Notes under the pieces: model-generated | What the model was told of the DNA's origin: nothing | Seen by the model: the letters and a program-made list of their open reading frames with translations, nothing else | Database searches by the model: none | Part shown: one piece after another, positions 850 to 29,846 of the stretch | Layout: each line of letters starts with the position of its first letter | Position numbering within the stretch: the first letter of the stretch is position 1 | Origin: a virus | Virus record (IMG/VR): IMGVR_UViG_3300046009_009467 | Coordinates: 1 to 33,306 of that record | Direction: 5' to 3' (one strand) | Length of the DNA: 33,306 bases | Program-made: the position numbers and the translations under genes

Positions 850-2685
850 ATGGCAAAAAAAATATCATATACTGAAAGGGAATTTGTTGGATTAAGACAA
901 GATTTAATTAATTTTACTCAGCAGTACTATCCAGAATTAGTACAAAATTTTAACGATGCTTCAATATTTTCGGTATTGATGGATTTAAATGCCGCCATTG
1001 GGGATAACCTACATTATCATATAGATAGAAGCATCCAAGAAACGGTATTACAATATGCCCAGCAAAGATCTTCAATATATAATATAGCAAGAACGTATGG
1101 TTTAAAAATACCGGGTTATAGACCTTCGGTAACTATTTTAAATCTTTCTATTACTGTTCCGGTATATAATGATTCGGATGATACAAGATATTTGGGGGTG
1201 TTAAGAGCGGGATCTCAGTTTTTTGGTGCAGGGACTGTATTTGAAAACCTTTATGATATTGATTTTTCTTCTGAATATAGTGCGTTAGGGTTTCAAAATA
1301 GAACAAAAATACCCCTTAAAAATTCATCCAATACTACATATGCATATACCATAACGAAACAAGAAGTGGTAGTAAATGGAACTACAAAAATATTTAAAAA
1401 ACCAATAAACCCTGCAGATGTAGTTCCGTTTTACAATGTATTTTTACCGGAAAGAAATGTTTTAAGTGTTACGTCAATAATACAAAAAGATGGGACTAAT
1501 TACTCAACAGTTCCGAATTATGGTGAGTTTATTACGTCAACGAACAAATGGTATGAGGTTGATGCTTTAGCACAGGATACTATATTTGTTGAAGATCCGA
1601 CAAAACCTATTGATTCTACGGGAGTAAAAACAGGTAGGTATATAAAAACGGACACACGTTTTATTACTGAATATACACCGGAAGGGTTTTTAAAAGTTCA
1701 ATTTGGTGGAGGAACAACTACACCAAATGAGCAATTAAAAGAGTTTACTAAAGTTGGTATCCCATTAAGTGTGCAAAATTTTCAAAATAACATTGGACTT
1801 GGATTAACCGTAAACCCAAATACTACTATTTTTATACAATATAGAGTTGGCGGTGGATTAGCATCTAATGTTGGTGTTGGGGCAATAAACCAAGTTGGTA
1901 CTATTGATTTTTCTGTAAATGGTCCGTCTAACACTGAAAATCAAAAAGTAATACAATCATTATCTGTCACAAATGTTACCGCAGCAATTGGTGGGTCAAA
2001 TCCGCCGACCGTTGAAGAAGTACGTAATATGGTATCATTTAACTTTGCGGCACAAAAAAGAGCGGTCACTTTAAATGATTATAAATCAATTATAGATACG
2101 ATGCCTGGTAAATTTGGTGCTCCATCTAAAGTTGCGATATCTGAAAAGGATAATAAAATTGCGGTTAAAGTTTTATCATTAGACACAAATAAAAAATTAA
2201 CACAAACCGTTTCTAATAATTTAATTAGTAATATTGCGATATACCTCTCAAATTATAGAATGATAAATGATTATGTATCGGTTGAGGTTGCAAAAGTCAT
2301 TGACTTGGAATTTGAATTTTCTGTTGTATTGGAGGGTGGGGTAAATCAAGGACAAGTAATAACTCAAATAATAAATTCTGTTTCAGATTATATGCAACCT
2401 AACAATAGAGAAATGGGGCAGAACCTAAATGTTTCTGACATCAGACGATTAGTTCAGGATGTTTCCGGGGTATTGACACTTGCAAATTTAAACATATATA
2501 ATAAAGTCGGTGGTCAGTACTCGTCATCAGAAACATCCCAAAGATACATTGATCCTGAAACAAAACAAATAGAAATCATAGACGAGACAATATTTGCGGA
2601 ACCCGATCAAATTTATCAAATAAGGTTTGATAATGTTGATATTAAAGTAAGGGTTAAAAATCTAAATACTGTAGACTTCTCCTAA
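850..2685 (+). CDS. baseplate wedge protein, gp6-like (baseplate J superfamily)
   Basis: A 611-aa protein resembling T4 gp6 (660 aa), the dimeric wedge subunit that forms the inner iris of the baseplate. The N-terminal segment (residues ~15-85) has the typical layout: YPEL, then a short loop, then IGDNLHYHIDRS and QQRSSIYNIARTYGLKIPGY. The middle has VEEVRNMVSFNFAAQKRAVT followed by LNDYKSIIDTMP (residues ~390-420), matching the conserved core of gp6/J proteins. The C-terminal part (NREMGQNLNVSDIRRLVQ...) matches the family's final domain. Starts three bases after the gp25-like stop. It would work with gp25 in wedge assembly. Very unlikely to be anything but a baseplate J/gp6 homologue. Confidence 0.9.
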   Translation: MAKKISYTEREFVGLRQDLINFTQQYYPELVQNFNDASIFSVLMDLNAAIGDNLHYHIDRSIQETVLQYAQQRSSIYNIARTYGLKIPGYRPSVTILNLSITVPVYNDSDDTRYLGVLRAGSQFFGAGTVFENLYDIDFSSEYSALGFQNRTKIPLKNSSNTTYAYTITKQEVVVNGTTKIFKKPINPADVVPFYNVFLPERNVLSVTSIIQKDGTNYSTVPNYGEFITSTNKWYEVDALAQDTIFVEDPTKPIDSTGVKTGRYIKTDTRFITEYTPEGFLKVQFGGGTTTPNEQLKEFTKVGIPLSVQNFQNNIGLGLTVNPNTTIFIQYRVGGGLASNVGVGAINQVGTIDFSVNGPSNTENQKVIQSLSVTNVTAAIGGSNPPTVEEVRNMVSFNFAAQKRAVTLNDYKSIIDTMPGKFGAPSKVAISEKDNKIAVKVLSLDTNKKLTQTVSNNLISNIAIYLSNYRMINDYVSVEVAKVIDLEFEFSVVLEGGVNQGQVITQIINSVSDYMQPNNREMGQNLNVSDIRRLVQDVSGVLTLANLNIYNKVGGQYSSSETSQRYIDPETKQIEIIDETIFAEPDQIYQIRFDNVDIKVRVKNLNTVDFS

Positions 2686-2708
2686 CTATCTTTATTTTGG
2701 ATTAATAT

Positions 2709-2750
2709 TATTTATCTTTAAAAATAGGATCATAACTATTTATTTTAAAA
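2709..2750 (+). promoter_or_regulatory. two TATTTAT-type boxes in the gap before the 1658-aa gene
   Basis: The 71-base gap after the gp6-like gene holds TATTTATC at 2709-2716 and TATTTATTTTAAAA at 2737-2750. The second starts 20 bases before the ATG at 2757. No hairpin terminator is obvious in the gap, so transcripts may also read through from upstream. Confidence 0.4.
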
Positions 2751-2756
2751 GATTTA

Positions 2757-5700
2757 ATGAGCAAAAGTTATAGGCTTAGAACCAAACCGGGAATAGACCA
2801 AAATATTAGAATAAACATAAATCAAGATTTTGATTTTCTTGAAATTTTGTCTTTAAAATTAAGGCAAGAAGACGTTTACACAAGATTTTGTGCGGATTAT
2901 GGGGTTGTTGCTGGTAGAGTTGTGGCTAATGGAGGTTTTGGTATACCTAATGCGAACGTATCTATCTTTGTGCCTTTAAGTGATATTGATGAAAATGATC
3001 CCGTAATATCCACTTTATATCCTTATAAATTTTTAGATCAAAAAAACGAAGATGGATATAGATATAATCTTCTTCCATATGTTAGTGAATATAACGGACA
3101 CACACCAACAGGGACATTTCCATCAAGAGAAGATGTTTTAACACGTAAGGAGGTTTTAGAATTATACGAAAAATATTATAAATACACCGTTAAAACAAAT
3201 GATAGTGGTGATTTTATGATTGTTGGTGTACCATTAGGGAATCAAAAAATTGTAATAGATTTAGACCTTTCAAATATGGGTTGTTTTTCTTTAAGACCTG
3301 CAGATTTAGTTAGAATGGGTAGAGGCGTATCTGAACAATTTGACGGGCAAAGATTTAAATCCTCTTCTGATTTAGGATCATTACCACAACTTTTTAACAC
3401 TGCAAAAGATATTGACGTGACTTCATTTTGGGGTGAAGAAGATATTTGTACTGTTGGAATTACAAGGGTGGATTTTGATCTAAGAGACTACAATATTGAT
3501 ATTAAACCTCAGGCAACATTTATGGGGTCAATCTTTTCAACTTCGGATGAAGATTATTTAAAAACTAATTGTAAGCCTAAAAAAGATTCCGGTAATTTAT
3601 GTGATTTAGTTGCAGGTCCTGGTAGGATTTTAGCGATTAGACAAACTAAAGATTATGATATTGATGGGAGACCCGTTTTAGAGCAATACAATTTAGAAAA
3701 CGGAGGAAATGTAATTGACGAAAATGGGGCGTGGTTAGTAGAAGTACCAATGAACCTTGATTACGTGGTGACAAATGAATTCGGAGATCAAGTTTTATCA
3801 AATGATCCGTCCGTTGGAATACCAACAAAAGGGAAATATAGATTTAGAATACAATACCAAAATGAAGATGGTTTAAATAATGATATATTAAGGGCTGATT
3901 ATTTAGTGCCTAATGTAAAAGAATGGGGATGGACTGGAATTAATCCTCCTGTTGGGTCTACAGAACAATTAAAATCCTATGCGTTTAGTTTAGATTGGAA
4001 TGATTATGGGGACACTACGACCGCTAATGGTATACAAATGATAAATGAGGCGATAAAGTGTGAAGATAGGTTTTATGAGTTTAATTATAATAAAGTTTAT
4101 ACTATTGCAAATTTCTTTGATAGATGGAAATGGGGGTATAATAGAAGTAGACATTTAGGGATTAAAGAGATCACCGATAGAAGTTGTTCAACCACAAATA
4201 ATCGTTTTCCGGTAAATGATGGGGTTAGGAACTTTGATTTTATATTTTTCCTTTTTAATTTATTGGTAACTATTTTTACACTAGTTTTTGTTGCATTAAT
4301 ACCTATTTTACACGTACTAGCCCTTATTTGGCCGGTGCTTAAATGGGTTATTGCAATAGCATTACCTGCATATTTTATATACATCGCCACAAATTATGCT
4401 GTTTCTGCGGTCGTTGCTGCACCTGCGTGGGGACTCACTATACTTTTTGCTATAGTTGCTGGAGTATTAGGGGTGGCCGCTGGCGTTTTTATTAGTAAAG
4501 TTTCTCCGTTTTTAATTAAATTTAATTTTAAAGGACTATCATTACCAATGATGTCATATCCTGATTGTGAATCATGTCCTTGTGATATTCCGGATTTGGA
4601 ATTGGATGAGGTGACAGGGGGGTTGTTTGGGGGTAATGGTAGTAATCAACAAACTAAAATTGGCAAATATACTATAAATTCTAGAACGAGTGGGAGTATT
4701 TTATCAGACACAAACTCTAATATATTTTGGGGTGGTGTGCCTAATAATAGTTTATGTAATGTAGATGATAGTGATAATCAAGTATTAGAAGGTGGTTATC
4801 CTACTTATTTTTGTTATATTGATCCGGATAGTTATGGAGGAAGTACTAATAAACAAAATAATAAATATCAAGCAGATAGTTATGGTATACGTTATGGGAT
4901 AGCGGGTTATCCGACACCTCCAGAGATTGGTATGCCTGTCGTCACTAAATTTTCTAACAAAAAATATATTCCAAATACGGACATCACTTATTCTCAGTCA
5001 TTAAATTTAGCCAATTTAAGAGTTAGATATTTTGATAGTAGTGCACCGAATAGAATTAAAACAACAATAAATGCAACTAATCCACCTGTTTTTGATAATG
5101 TTTTAATATTGATGGTGGATCCTAATACGTACTCAACAATACCTGCAGGGACACTATTAAGTTTTACTAATCCAAATTCAGTTATAGACACTAACCTTAC
5201 AGGGGCAACAAATGAAAATCAGTTTGGGTCTAATGCGGTGACAGGAACGTCATTTACCTCACTTACCTCAACCAATATAACATATATTGATCCTGTAACT
5301 TTAAACCCTCAGAGTGTTAACGTTTTTATATCAGGAAATACTACAGAAAAAGAGTACAAGTTTAAAACAGGTATTGAATATTTTCAAGTGGTCACTGGTA
5401 TGACAATGTATGATGCGGATTTAATCACTTCAGGGATTAAAATAAGTACTAACCCTGACCCTGCAACTCATTACGACACTACGTCACTTTTAAGAAAATA
5501 TATATTAAATAAATTACAGAATATAACATATGAAGATAATTCTAATGTGGGTGATAGTGGAGATATAAGGACAGAATTAATTAACCCATTAACTGTAAAT
5601 GGGGATAGTTGGCAAAACCAAGAACTGATTTTTTTGGTTAGGGGTGTTGACCCTTTTAGTGATAAACAAAACATTGAGTATGATTTGTCATTGATTTTTG

Positions 5701-22926: not shown

Positions 22927-24543
22927 ATGAGTCAATTAAGCGGAAATAGTTGTAATATTATAACACTTCTACCATTAGGGTTAGATTGTGAAAGTATTAG
23001 TGCGAATACTCCATACACTACAGATGGTTTAATAACTTTATTTGTGACAGGAGGTACTCCACCATACACAATAAATTGGAGTAATGGGTCTCAAGGGTCT
23101 TATTTATTTAATTTAGCACCTGGTGATTATACTGCAACCGTTATTGATTATTATGGTGATTTTACAGCAACTACTACTTGTAGTGTTGGATACGAAAACT
23201 TTTATTTAGAAAAATTCCAAAATTGTGTTAATAGTGCGACTACGGTTTATTACGTTGCAAATATGCCATCTACGTTTATTACTGATAAAGTATATAGATT
23301 GCAAGGGCAAACTGGATGTTGGGAAAGTAAAGGTTTAGAATTAACATCTGGACAAACTTATGTGGACTCATATGCGGTTGTAACTGCAGGACCTTACCCT
23401 AATTGTAAGGGATGTTTGCCTATTGATCCTGTAATTCCAGTTAAACCTGAAAAGTTATGTTTGGAATATAAAAGTGGAGGGGTAGTTCAAACAACTACGT
23501 ATATACAATTTAGTTCGGGAGGTACTATAAATAATAAAAACTCATGGACAAGTGTTACGCCTTCATATGTGATTTATTATAATAGTGGGTCGACAAATTG
23601 GCAAATAAGTGGATGGACAGGATCAGGAAACCCAACACAAGTTAATACCGTTTCATCTCCATTAGGTTCTTGGGTTATTTATGGAGGATCGGGAAGTATA
23701 AATGTCGTTGGAGGTACTTGTGTTATTAAACCTAATATGTTTATTAAAACAAATAGTGCGACTTGTTCTGACGTAAGCAATGGTTCAGTGGTGATAACTG
23801 CAATAGGGGGTACTCCGCCTTATGAGTACTCTTTAGATGGGGTTTTATATCAACCTTCAAGTATGTTTATTGGTCTTTCGTCTGGAAACTATACTGCGTA
23901 CGTTAAAGATAGTTCAGGAGCAACAAACTCACAAAGTTTTACAATAAACGCATCATCTACTCAAACAACATATACAGTAAACCTTTACCAACAACCAATT
24001 GCAACACCAATATATAACAACACGTCTAATTACACACAAATAACATATAATTGGTATGCTGATGTTACACCACCTCTTCCATCTGGAAAAACAATAACTT
24101 TTGATATAATACAAAGTGTGAATAGTGAAAGTAGAAGTGGGTATTATAATGTTACCGAAGTATTTCCTACGTTACAATATTCATCAATAACGGGTGTTAC
24201 AGGTGGAGGGTCAATTACTGCGACCACAACCACAACACCGGTAATTACATCACCAACATCACCGACCTGTGTAAATACAATATCAACAACCGCGTATACT
24301 AACACGTACAAGGCGTTAATTACTGGAATTGGAAATATATACGGACAAATAAATAAAAAAATAACAACACCAAACGGAACGGTAGGGGGTTGTCCAACAT
24401 ACGGATTGTTAAACGATACAATAAACATCGCAAACGTAAAATTGGTTAATGCTAGTGTTTGTGAACTTATAAACACTAGAGTACCACCACTACCATTAAA
24501 CTTAAGTAGGACCGGAGGGGTGTTATTTTTAAATAAGGGATAA
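22927..24543 (+). CDS. modular fibre/adhesin protein with SprB-like and CC-type domains
   Basis: A 538-aa protein. Residues ~30-85 form an SprB-like repeat (LFVTGGTPPYTINWSNGSQG, then LAPGDYTATVID). Residues ~93-172 form a CC-type module like those in the Pro-Thr protein (YLEKFQNCV...DKVYRLQGQTGCWES...YPNCKGC). Residues ~175-265 resemble the PYY/W module (KLCLEYKSGG...YVIYYNSGSTNWQISGW). Residues ~275-345 are a second SprB-like repeat (SATCSDVSNGSVVITAIGGT, then GNYTAYVKDSSG). The C-terminal ~190 residues are Thr/Val-rich beta sequence, ending GGVLFLNKG. This mix of domains from its neighbours suggests it is a receptor-binding or surface protein made by domain shuffling. No signal peptide. 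Confidence 0.6.
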   Translation: MSQLSGNSCNIITLLPLGLDCESISANTPYTTDGLITLFVTGGTPPYTINWSNGSQGSYLFNLAPGDYTATVIDYYGDFTATTTCSVGYENFYLEKFQNCVNSATTVYYVANMPSTFITDKVYRLQGQTGCWESKGLELTSGQTYVDSYAVVTAGPYPNCKGCLPIDPVIPVKPEKLCLEYKSGGVVQTTTYIQFSSGGTINNKNSWTSVTPSYVIYYNSGSTNWQISGWTGSGNPTQVNTVSSPLGSWVIYGGSGSINVVGGTCVIKPNMFIKTNSATCSDVSNGSVVITAIGGTPPYEYSLDGVLYQPSSMFIGLSSGNYTAYVKDSSGATNSQSFTINASSTQTTYTVNLYQQPIATPIYNNTSNYTQITYNWYADVTPPLPSGKTITFDIIQSVNSESRSGYYNVTEVFPTLQYSSITGVTGGGSITATTTTTPVITSPTSPTCVNTISTTAYTNTYKALITGIGNIYGQINKKITTPNGTVGGCPTYGLLNDTINIANVKLVNASVCELINTRVPPLPLNLSRTGGVLFLNKG

Positions 24544-26808: not shown

Positions 26809-27414
26809 ATGTCAGAAAAAACAGATTTGAAAAACTCACCAAAAGTATTAGGTTTAGATATTTCAACCAAAACAATTGGTTGGTCTTTATTTGATATCCA
26901 AACAAAAGACTTATTAGAATTAACACATTTTTCACCAGTTATAAAACCAAAACCTGAAGATAAAATTGAGGAACTAATTTTAAAAGTTAGGGCATTTGAA
27001 GAAAAAATAGAAGGTTATAGAAATTTAGGGATCACAAAAGTTGTTATTGAAGAGCCACTTTTAAACTCAAATAACATTTGGACGGTAGGGACTCTTTTAA
27101 GATATAACTCAATGATTACAAAATCAATTTATGATATATTGGGGATCGTACCTTGTTTTATCTCAACATACAATTCAAGAAAATGTGCTTGGCCTGACTT
27201 AGTTCAAGAAAATGATAAAGGTAAGAAAGTTTTATTTGGAGGTCTTCCGAAAGACATCGACAAAAAAGAAATCATTTGGAAAAAAGTATCAAACAAAGAA
27301 CCTCAAATTACTTGGCTTTATACAAAAAACAACACACTTAAAAAAGAATGTTTTGATATGTCAGATGCCTATACCTGTGTGATGGGATATATGAAACAAG
27401 AAAATATATGGTAA
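26809..27414 (+). CDS. RuvC-like RNase H-fold nuclease (Holliday junction resolvase-like)
   Basis: A 201-aa protein. LGLDISTKTIGWSLFD (residues 14-29) supplies the first catalytic Asp (D17) on strand 1. VVIEEPL (78-84) supplies the Glu (E81 or E82). FDMSDAYTCVMGYM (182-195) supplies D183 and D186 on the last helix. This D...E...DxxD set is the RuvC active site. Related phage enzymes resolve four-way junctions to debranch replicating DNA before packaging. The length is close to RuvC (~170 aa) with an N-terminal extension. It is the last gene before a terminator and the first DNA-metabolism gene after the virion block, perhaps co-expressed with late genes, as suits a packaging-stage debranching enzyme (inference). 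Confidence 0.82.
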   Translation: MSEKTDLKNSPKVLGLDISTKTIGWSLFDIQTKDLLELTHFSPVIKPKPEDKIEELILKVRAFEEKIEGYRNLGITKVVIEEPLLNSNNIWTVGTLLRYNSMITKSIYDILGIVPCFISTYNSRKCAWPDLVQENDKGKKVLFGGLPKDIDKKEIIWKKVSNKEPQITWLYTKNNTLKKECFDMSDAYTCVMGYMKQENIW

Positions 27415-27439
27415 AATCAGTTTTTAACTGATTTTTTTT
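27414..27439 (+). terminator. Rho-independent terminator after the RuvC-like gene
   Basis: A perfect 9-bp stem, AAATCAGTT (27414-27422) with AACTGATTT (27426-27434), has a three-base loop and a T-rich tail to 27439. It closes the long structural/RuvC transcription unit. Confidence 0.88.
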
Positions 27440-27450
27440 ATTTTATTAAG

Positions 27451-27465
27451 TATTTATAATAAAAA
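27451..27465 (+). promoter_or_regulatory. TATTTAT-type box before the tagged small protein gene
   Basis: TATTTATAATAAAAA sits just after the terminator and begins 22 bases before the ATG at 27473, as expected for a promoter starting a new transcription unit. Confidence 0.45.
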
Positions 27466-27479
27466 TTGAATTATGAAAA
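27458..27479 (+). repeat. duplicated leader, copy 1 (partner at 27828-27849)
   Basis: Twenty-two bases ending in ATGAAAA, containing AATAAAAATTGAATT, are identical to 27828-27849. The repeat covers the leader and first codons of two genes whose bodies differ. Confidence 0.8.
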
Positions 27480-27808
27480 GAACAATAAAATTAACCGAAT
27501 CAGAAAAAAATAGAATTCTTGAAATGCATAAAACCGCAACAATGAAACAATATTTAAATGAACAAATAAATGATGGAAAAAATTTAGATCAAATTTTAAT
27601 TTCTAAATTTATTGAAATGGGAAAAGCGGGAAAAGAGTATAATACACCTGGAATGATGACTCAATTTTTTGATGATTATTCTACTGAATATCAGGATTGG
27701 TTGGTTAAAAATGGATTTAAAATGTCAGATGTAAATTTATCAGTTGGATCTAAAACTGAAGATATTAAAAGAGTTAATGATCTAATTAAACAGAAAGGTT
27801 GGAAATAA
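27473..27808 (+). CDS. small protein with conserved N-terminal peptide, body 1
   Basis: A 111-aa protein of unknown function. The N-terminus MKRTIKLTESEKNRIL, followed by EMHKTATMKQYLNEQ (to residue 31), shares M-K-x-x-I-x-L-T-E-x-x-x-x-R-I with the next gene and likewise ends in L-x-E-Q. The body (residues 32-111) is helical and charged (LDQILISKFIEMGKAGKEYN, YQDWLVKNGFKMSDVN, RVNDLIKQKGW). There is no membrane segment. The N-terminal peptide may be a removable targeting signal, as in T4 internal head proteins (inference). It is flanked by terminators together with the next gene and shares that gene's leader. Confidence 0.6.
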   Translation: MKRTIKLTESEKNRILEMHKTATMKQYLNEQINDGKNLDQILISKFIEMGKAGKEYNTPGMMTQFFDDYSTEYQDWLVKNGFKMSDVNLSVGSKTEDIKRVNDLIKQKGWK

Positions 27809-27827
27809 CCACAATTTTCATTACTAA

Positions 27828-27849
27828 AATAAAAATTGAATTATGAAAA
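27828..27849 (+). repeat. duplicated leader, copy 2 (partner at 27458-27479)
   Basis: Identical to copy 1 over 22 bases. Copy 2 lacks the TATTTAT box upstream (it has TTACTAAAAT instead), so the shared part is more likely a translation leader than the promoter. Confidence 0.8.
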
Positions 27850-28298
27850 AAATTATAAGATTAACAGAAAATGATTTAACTCGTATCGTTAAAAGGGTTT
27901 TAAGGGAGCAATCAACAGATGAAAATAAAGTTGAAGTTTATGGATTAAATGATAATACGTATGTTCACTGGGATTTCCCATCATTAAAAACAAATCCATC
28001 AGTGATATATAATTTAAGTATTAAATGTACAAAAAAATGCCAAGGTGTACGAAGTAGTGAAAATAAGGAAGGTGATTATTCTTTAGATAAAAAAGGATTA
28101 AAAGAAACTAATGTAGGATTAGGTTTAGGTTCTTCATATAATAATATTAAATTCCGTAATTATTTGGTTAAAGTGGATGCGGTATCTAATGGTAAAGTGG
28201 TTGCATCAATATCAAAAGAGTATGGTCCGGGATTACCCGATGGTAAACTTACAGATTTAACTGCTACGACAGGGGGAGGTAAACCTAAAACATTTTAA
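27843..28298 (+). CDS. small protein with conserved N-terminal peptide, body 2
   Basis: A 151-aa protein of unknown function. The N-terminus MKKIIRLTENDLTRIV, followed by KRVLREQ (to residue 23), is a basic amphipathic helix related to that of the preceding gene. The body is unlike the preceding protein: it looks beta-rich (NLSIKCTKKCQGV, NYLVKVDAVSNGKVVASISK) with a Cys pair and ends in a Gly/Thr tail (TATTGGGKPKTF). One small beta-sandwich domain is plausible. The different bodies behind a common N-terminus suggest the N-terminus is a sorting signal rather than part of the fold. Confidence 0.6.
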   Translation: MKKIIRLTENDLTRIVKRVLREQSTDENKVEVYGLNDNTYVHWDFPSLKTNPSVIYNLSIKCTKKCQGVRSSENKEGDYSLDKKGLKETNVGLGLGSSYNNIKFRNYLVKVDAVSNGKVVASISKEYGPGLPDGKLTDLTATTGGGKPKTF

Positions 28299-28322
28299 AT
28301 GAAATTATAAAAAATCATATTA

Positions 28323-28349
28323 ACCCACCCCATTAAAGGTGGGTTTTTT
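28323..28349 (+). terminator. Rho-independent terminator, GC-rich stem
   Basis: ACCCACC (28323-28329) pairs with GGTGGGT (28338-28344) around an 8-base loop and runs into TTTTTT. The GC-rich stem stands out in this AT-rich DNA. It separates the two tagged proteins from the HNH gene. Confidence 0.9.
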
Positions 28350-28359
28350 GTTGTGTAAA

Positions 28360-28370
28360 TATTTATATAA
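28360..28370 (+). promoter_or_regulatory. TATTTATATAA box before the HNH gene
   Basis: TATTTATATAA begins 14 bases before the ATG at 28374 and immediately follows the terminator, so the HNH gene may have its own promoter. Confidence 0.4.
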
Positions 28371-28373
28371 TGT

Positions 28374-28895
28374 ATGTGTAAAGTATGTATTATTTGTAAA
28401 ATTGAAAAACCATTAAGTGAATTTCATAAACACAAAGGAAGAAAGGATGGTTATAGAGAGAGGTGTAAACTATGCCGTTCTAATCAGTTCAAGGGAGATT
28501 ACGAATTAATTAAATATGAACATAGAGAACGGTCAAAAAAATTTAGACAAAATAATAAAGAATATCTTAGAGAATTTTATAAAAATTATTATAAAAAAAA
28601 CAAACATCAGTATTCTTGGAGGACTCTACTGTACAGAACAATTAAACATTTAGATATTACAAAAAATGACCATACGATAAATATATTGGGATATAGTGCT
28701 CAAGATTTAAAAGATCATTTAGAAAAACAATTCAAAGAAGGGATGTGTTGGGAAAACTATGGTGAATGGCACATTGACCATATAAGACCAATTTCTTCGT
28801 TTGATAAAAATGACGATCCTAAAATAATTAATGCGTTAAGTAACTTACAACCGTTATGGGCATTAGAAAACTACATTAAAAGTAATAAGTTTTGA
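28374..28895 (+). CDS. free-standing HNH endonuclease
   Basis: A 173-aa protein. The N-terminal zinc-finger-like part has CxxC at C5/C8 and C31/C34 (KPLSEFHKHKGRKDGYRERC between them), followed by a Lys/Tyr-rich DNA-binding linker. The C-terminal HNH core is WHIDHIRPISSFD (residues 132-144; H133, D135, H136), then NLQPLWALENYIKSNK (N157, N166). This is the common phage HNH homing-endonuclease layout, which nicks or cuts DNA and promotes its own spread. It is bracketed by a terminator on the left and a 30-base gap on the right. Nothing shows that it interrupts another gene. Confidence 0.9.
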   Translation: MCKVCIICKIEKPLSEFHKHKGRKDGYRERCKLCRSNQFKGDYELIKYEHRERSKKFRQNNKEYLREFYKNYYKKNKHQYSWRTLLYRTIKHLDITKNDHTINILGYSAQDLKDHLEKQFKEGMCWENYGEWHIDHIRPISSFDKNDDPKIINALSNLQPLWALENYIKSNKF

Positions 28896-28925
28896 TTTTT
28901 ATAAAAAGTTTTATTATTATTTCGT

Positions 28926-29846
28926 ATGGAAGATTACGAAGTGGTAAAAGACATACTTGATGGCATTTTTGGGGAGGCTCAAAAATATGATGATAGTAAA
29001 GGTCAAATTGCATATGATTGTCCAGTTTGTTCACACGAAATAAAAGGACTTGATAAGGGTGACGGTAAAGGTAATTTAGAGGTATCTTTAGAAAAAAATG
29101 CATATCATTGTTGGTCTTGTGGTGAAACTCACGACACTCACGGACATTTAGGAAAACTTATTGATATATATGGATCAAAAAAAGATAAAAAAACATATAA
29201 GTTAATAAGGCCCGACGATTTTGAAAAAAAAGAAAGAAAGTATAAAAAACTTGAATTACCAAAAGAATATAAAAAATTTGATGAGGTTAGTCATTTATAC
29301 CCACCAAGAAAAGAAGCGTTAAATTATTTAAAACAACGAGGGATAACTGATGAAATAATTGAAAAATATCAGATCGGTTTTTGTTATGAAGGTGATTATG
29401 CAGGAAGAGTGGTTGTTCCGTCTTTTAATAAAAAGGGAGAGTTAAACTTTTTTGTTTCAAGGTCTTGGAATAAAAGATCAAAGTTAAAATATAAAAACCC
29501 TGAAGCCCCCAAAGATTTTTTGATATTCAACGAAAGTTTGATTGATTTTAAAAAAGATATATACATTGTTGAAGGCGTGTTTGATTCATTTTTTCTTAAT
29601 AACTCAATTGCTCTTCTTGGAAAGTTTATAAATGACAACTTATGGGAGACATTATATAATAAGGCAAAAAAGAATATAATAATTTGTTTGGATGGAGATG
29701 CATTTGATGATGCAATGAAGATATATCAAAAATTAAACGGAGGTACATTATATAATAAAATAAAGATTGCAAAACTACCAAAAGATAATGATGTTTGTGA
29801 TCTAAAAGGAAATATTGAAGATTACTTAATTGAGGTTAGAGGATAA
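28926..29846 (+). CDS. DNA primase, zinc-finger plus TOPRIM (T4 gp61-like)
   Basis: A 306-aa protein. The N-terminal zinc ribbon has C32-P-V-C35 and C62-W-S-C65 (DCPVC ... YHCWSCG), as in DnaG/gp61 primases. A linker with ALNYLKQRGITDEIIEKYQIG, the typical pre-TOPRIM helix pair, follows. The TOPRIM core has IYIVEGVFDSFF (Glu ~216), ALLGK, and IIICLDGDAFDDA (D256, D258). T4 gp61 has 342 residues, so this is a complete short primase without a fused helicase; it would make RNA primers for the lagging strand with a separate helicase. Followed four bases later by the RecB-like nuclease, in a DNA-metabolism operon. Confidence 0.88.
   Translation: MEDYEVVKDILDGIFGEAQKYDDSKGQIAYDCPVCSHEIKGLDKGDGKGNLEVSLEKNAYHCWSCGETHDTHGHLGKLIDIYGSKKDKKTYKLIRPDDFEKKERKYKKLELPKEYKKFDEVSHLYPPRKEALNYLKQRGITDEIIEKYQIGFCYEGDYAGRVVVPSFNKKGELNFFVSRSWNKRSKLKYKNPEAPKDFLIFNESLIDFKKDIYIVEGVFDSFFLNNSIALLGKFINDNLWETLYNKAKKNIIICLDGDAFDDAMKIYQKLNGGTLYNKIKIAKLPKDNDVCDLKGNIEDYLIEVRG

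Follow-up and report, generated by a model that had tools for sequence, protein, structure and literature searches.

We propose that two neighboring small proteins encoded in a fragment of viral DNA carry capsid-targeting propeptides of an enlarged, modular T4-style system, a reading to which we give a probability of roughly 0.8 on the basis of sequence comparisons. The fragment, hereafter the window, is the whole stretch analyzed, a virus record of 33,306 bases, in which both genes (27473..27808 and 27843..28298) were confirmed as open frames. Among related phages we observed shared N-terminal tags on diverse bodies, a sharp end of the tags at [I/L]xE, swaps of tags at the predicted cut, and the co-occurrence of gp21 and gp23 genes. 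For the tagged proteins, we infer late expression, core binding, cleavage, packaging, and ejection. The proteins would be made late, and the tag, a short lead strand followed by a helix, would be bound by the prohead core, which would take the passenger into the growing head. A gp21-type prohead protease would then cut after the Glu of [I/L]-x-E and free the unrelated mature protein, which would remain in the head and probably enter the host with the DNA. The cargo genes would be interchangeable cassettes, with the tag joined to the body at the cleavage point. The tag apparently serves as an address label on cargo packed into the head for delivery to the bacterium, and it could be used to find cargo genes from sequence.

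The Two Tagged Genes of the Window

The two genes form a cassette with the following features.

27451..27457, + strand: TATTTAT, late-promoter-like motif upstream of the tagged gene pair
27458..27479, + strand: 22-base leader/start AATAAAAATTGAATTATGAAAA, copy 1, identical to copy 2
27473..27808, + strand: tagged gene 1, 111 aa
27473..27562, + strand: class II tag MKRTIKLTESEKNRILEMHKTATMKQYLNE of gene 1, predicted cut after E30
27563..27805, + strand: predicted mature cargo 1, 81 aa, starting QINDGK; no close relative found
27828..27849, + strand: 22-base leader/start AATAAAAATTGAATTATGAAAA, copy 2, identical to copy 1
27843..28298, + strand: tagged gene 2, 151 aa
27843..27908, + strand: class I tag MKKIIRLTENDLTRIVKRVLRE of gene 2, predicted cut after E22
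27909..28295, + strand: predicted mature cargo 2, 129 aa, starting QSTDEN; no family
28322..28345, + strand: terminator-like hairpin and T run, end of the two-gene cassette

The original prediction, made from the window alone, had described an identical 22-base leader/start in both genes. The two copies are exact (27458-27479 and 27828-27849), and they were the only matches to AATAAAAATTGAATTATGAAAA in the window even when up to three mismatches were allowed, with 0.00 expected from shuffles. Other parts of that description also held: both MKRTIKLTESEKNRI and MKKIIRLTENDLTRI fit the pattern MKxxIxLTExxxxRI, the peptides end in L28-N29-E30-Q31 (gene 1) and L20-R21-E22-Q23 (gene 2), and the bodies of the two proteins are unrelated. 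The notion of a shared N-terminal peptide stood in part, in that the MK..I.LTE start and the [IL]-x-E end are common to both proteins, but the supposed single peptide proved to be two tag classes.

Searches of Pfam and PHROGs with both window proteins returned nothing usable, and no body relatives of either were confirmed in viral_contigs. The single-sequence structure model of cargo 1 was mostly helical at low confidence (pLDDT 61) and that of cargo 2 was too poor to use (pLDDT 35.5); at these values, neither is good enough for a fold search.

Three Tag Classes with a Common Sharp End

The suggestion that this N-terminus would be found elsewhere on diverse bodies was borne out in related phages, in which it is common. 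We distinguished three classes, with the consensus sequences MKKIIRLTESDLxRIVKRVIxE↓ (class I), MKxxIISEEEKxRILxMHxxAxxRxYLxE↓ (class II), and the short MKIIITESQYKxLxE↓ (class III), where the arrow marks the predicted cut. Over all fetched loci, body clusters numbered 167 for class I, 54 for class II, and 33 for class III (239 in total), and these counts, coming from pattern-selected loci, are lower bounds for the collection.

In class I, 218 distinct complete tagged proteins fell into 158 body clusters. Most tag positions carried about 2-3 bits of information, which collapsed right after the Glu, to 0.96 bits at the next residue and then to 0.1-0.3 bits, as expected from the earlier claim of a tag ending in the gp21 motif (L/I)-x-E; the 3.72 bits at the Glu itself arise partly by construction, because the site was used for alignment. 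When a class I set unconditioned on the site was taken (n = 135), E stood at residue 22 in 115 of the 135 proteins, and the others were mostly of a form longer by four residues, or one helical turn (HRIVKNSVKRILKE, E26). In an alignment of 139 tagged proteins, the majority consensus was confined to the tag, and M1, K2, L7, T8, E9, L12, and E22 were each conserved in at least 90%.

Class II tags, exemplified by MKKFLITEEEKSRILGMHKSAIAREFLGE↓Q and MKQFIISEQEKSRILEMHQSATSRQYLME↓A, ranged from 19 to 37 residues, and [ILV]xE was still kept in 40 of 42. Strict [IL]xE occurred in 86% of class II members versus 15% of control windows, and [IL]xE[QNSGADE] in 83% versus 6%; a later, looser class II scan (111 stretches) required the Glu and was left out of this site test. 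The site was missing in about 37% of class III members. Residues preferred after the predicted cut were Q/S/N/E/D, and in the capsid proteins of these phages and in T4 ipII/ipIII the residue was A. As read from these alignments, the three classes differ in length and sequence, and all stop at [I/L]xE, the gp21 cleavage motif.

Tag Swaps and Probable Cassette Exchange

Tags of more than one class were found on 14 body clusters. Homology in three strong swap pairs began exactly at the first residue past the predicted cut: LLSE↓AVGVPKGI (class I, L102) versus ILQE↓AVGVPKGI (class III, L081), with 63% identity over 398 columns; IVKE↓NEENWIS (class I, L341) versus YLKE↓NEDEWID (class II, L243), with 60% over 183 columns; and VINE↓NQEEVDRI (class I, L030) versus FLIE↓NQEVVDRI (class III, L292), with 57% over 154 columns. 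Two chimeric N-termini were also noticed, in which a class I tag is followed by an apparent class II tag end, SGISRQYLKE in L050 and GTSRHYLIE in L066:1598-2122. They look as if one tag had been put in front of another, and the L050 chimera is what would be expected if tags get replaced by recombination.

Differences at one locus were also visible between close relatives. Most structural proteins shared by the window and its near relative G036 are 91-100% identical. The single tagged gene of G036 at the window's locus (L231) matches window gene 2 exactly over the first 69 nt and differs from it in the body; two other tagged bodies occupy the same locus in L038. Such a pattern might arise if the shared 5' ends were a recombination handle or mobile leader for body exchange and the peptide had no function, and chimeras such as L050 would fit that explanation as well. 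Codon identity at identical residues was indeed higher (0.49 overall, 0.55 within loci) than the expected 0.41. However, this excess is only moderate, the peptide is kept across phages despite codon drift, and the retention of tag residues amid unrelated bodies needs selection on the peptide. Thus, we concluded that such selection, beyond DNA copying, keeps the tag, and we regard a functionless leader as very improbable. A role as a recombination handle is probably true in addition to that of a capsid-targeting propeptide, as the route of cassette swapping.

The window interval 26809-29846, between a gene at 26809 (LGLDISTKTIGWSLFD, RuvC-like by eye) and a primase-like gene, is a hot spot whose tagged genes differ between the window, G036, and L038, and in the window it also contains an HNH-like gene. 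Two further observations concern the make-up of the tags. A protein family near the capsid gene, recognizable by RYMFFSNLEQM, has a full class I tag in G003 (L202:10113-10604), and its orthologue in G015 (L176 10719-11174) has only the second half of that tag (MKNLDNLIKQVLKEQ), which suggests a minimal tag. In G003, a row of short paralogues starting MKYLITESKL (L197:11640-14179) shares a gene cluster with class I tagged genes; their N-terminus is tag-like, but these proteins are alike over more of their length, and the family was not counted as tag reuse for this reason.

Head Protease and Capsid Genes of Tag-Bearing Phages

The gp21 family (PF03420) was present in 23 of 44 tag-bearing records and the gp23 family (PF07068) in 21 of 44, and all six records larger than 285 kb had both; the HK97-type capsid family PF05065 was found in none of the 44. 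The original prediction had named a gp21-like protease gene as the companion to be sought, and the lack of a T4-type protease as evidence against packaging. Such a gene was found in every tag-bearing record with a T4-type capsid gene (21/21 with gp23 encode gp21). The only PDB match of the protease was T4 gp21 (5jbl, E 1.5e-15), and the matches of the capsid protein were gp23 and gp24 family proteins. One such gp21 homologue is encoded at L201:17086-17811. All 16 capsid N-termini that were read contained an invariant LINE↓A upstream of the VRR region, the part aligning with T4 gp23, and the capsid protein is predicted to be processed at this site. The gene order in G003 and G015 was, as in T4, a portal-like gene, two short genes, the protease, a scaffold-like acidic protein, and the capsid. 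The window itself is a 33-kb fragment without the head module (neither gp21 nor gp23), and we infer the protease of its own genome from the syntenic relatives G003, G004, and G006.

These data bear on the possibility that the tag is a signal to another place (the host membrane, a replication compartment, or the tail) and that [I/L]xE merely marks where an amphipathic helix stops. In favor of this, the tag peptide is basic and helix-forming, the models of both window proteins predict, at low confidence, a helix over its second half, and packaging itself is predicted. Nevertheless, three classes of different lengths and sequences all end at [I/L]xE, the strong body swaps occur exactly there, and the same motif stands in the capsid N-terminus, accompanied by a gp21-type protease. 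We thus consider another destination improbable and retain the capsid-targeting reading.

Predicted Cargo of the Tagged Proteins

Pfam searches with 139 tagged proteins matched only eight families, one member each. The recognized cargo included a phage lysozyme (L080), a Tae4-type amidase (L082), a peptidoglycan-binding domain (L218), LysM (L041), and an S-adenosylmethionine lyase (L102), types that, judged by their predicted families, suit virion delivery; the lysozymes could be ordinary lysis enzymes. In phage T3, S-adenosylmethionine lyase has anti-restriction activity, and the enzyme would therefore be a sensible protein to inject. An anti-restriction role has been described for T4 IPI (PMC9026906).

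Some tagged genes, for example L178 and the RYMFFSNLEQM family near gp23, adjoin the protease and capsid genes. This location would fit late structural components of the usual kind (core, decoration, or neck proteins) that happen to have a core-binding peptide in common and do not enter the host. As a general account this is unlikely, given that the tagged set is too diverse, includes enzymes, and is too variable between near-identical phages, although a minority of the tagged proteins may be core parts.

On balance, we lean toward the broader proposal that a clade of large T4-like phages has a general cargo-delivery platform, with several unrelated, interchangeable head-entry tags, each cleaved off by a single protease, and a large, rapidly exchanged set of injected effectors of anti-restriction, cell-wall, and unknown functions, the tag identifying first-strike proteins of uncultivated phages. 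Injected phage proteins act ahead of the host defense response, and their bodies have nothing in common by which they could easily be recognized. With a tag whose end is defined, such proteins and their mature N-termini can be picked out in uncultivated phages by a sequence rule. Since the great majority of the tagged proteins have no known family, they make a ready list of candidate anti-defense and host-takeover proteins. The tags could also be of use for packing large phage heads with foreign proteins.

Upstream Motif and Distribution of the Tags

The motif TATTTAT was found upstream of most tagged genes (101 of 156, within 60 nt), usually 19-29 nt ahead of the ATG. With a narrower upstream interval in G003, G004, and G006, it preceded 26 of 39 tagged versus 154 of 1011 untagged genes (Fisher P = 2.6e-12, with operon structure not controlled for). 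Within the window, gp25, tail, and fibre genes and the first tagged gene have the motif upstream, and the primase, exonuclease, and phosphoesterase genes do not. These positions fit a late promoter, a reading that is suggestive only because operon structure was uncontrolled.

A DNA pattern for MKxIIRLTExDLxxIV (class I) had at least 120 exact matches in viral_contigs and a single one across 257 Gb of genomes from bacteria and archaea. This sole prokaryote match is probably viral, since the 4-kb contig that contains it comes from a metagenome bin and has two tagged genes side by side. The large records carried about ten or more tags each. The 23-aa tag had no tblastn match among cultured phages at E<=10, and a pattern for the exact class II start of the window gene had no match. 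Searches of the literature found the tag named nowhere as IRLTESDL or LTESDL, the RLTES matches listed were unrelated by title, and nothing was found that combined a capsid targeting sequence with metagenomics.

Comparison with Known Systems

The closest parallel is the capsid targeting sequence (CTS) of the T4 internal proteins IPI, IPII, and IPIII, which is 10 residues long and is used with the gp21 motif L/I-x-E (PMC9026906). In the T4 record, ipII and ipIII, whose internal-protein role is described (PMC9026906), share MKTYQEFIAE↓A on different bodies. Both systems thus have a short N-terminal peptide with an MK start and an [I/L]-x-E end that recurs on bodies unrelated to one another, and both occur in genomes of one kind that also encode a gp21 protease and a gp23 capsid. 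By contrast, the tags described here are mostly 15-31 residues long versus 10 in T4, form at least three classes on hundreds of bodies, and favor Q/S/N after the cut. Class I and II profiles had no significant similarity to T4 ipI, ipII, or ipIII (E 0.15 or worse). Because the function-defining sequence features are present and similarity to the T4 peptides is lacking, we regard this as a T4-like targeting system that uses tags of its own.

For the giant phages phiKZ, 201phi2-1, and SPN3US, we know of no description of a short tag common to many bodies. They are likewise large, their head protease cuts propeptides after Glu, and their heads hold many ejection (E) proteins, whereas the cut motif of phiKZ is S/A-x-E (PMC5694885, PMC9026906).

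The nearest cultured relatives of the capsid protein include Flavobacterium phage immuto, Microcystis phage Mel-JY01, and Rhodothermus phage RM378 (36-41% identity), which makes a Bacteroidota host plausible. Immuto (NC_055915) is itself T4-like, has a Bacteroidota host, and encodes gp21 and gp23. Several of its small proteins share a basic N-terminus (MKKSELVKLIKEEL, MKKSQLREIIRKEL), and this N-terminus is repeated, with MKKSQIVKAVQEVLEE as a further instance, at 2294-3359 and 23355-23576 (L249). The sequence differs from that of the tags described here, of which it is possibly the equivalent, and cultured immuto would be a good system in which to test the tags.
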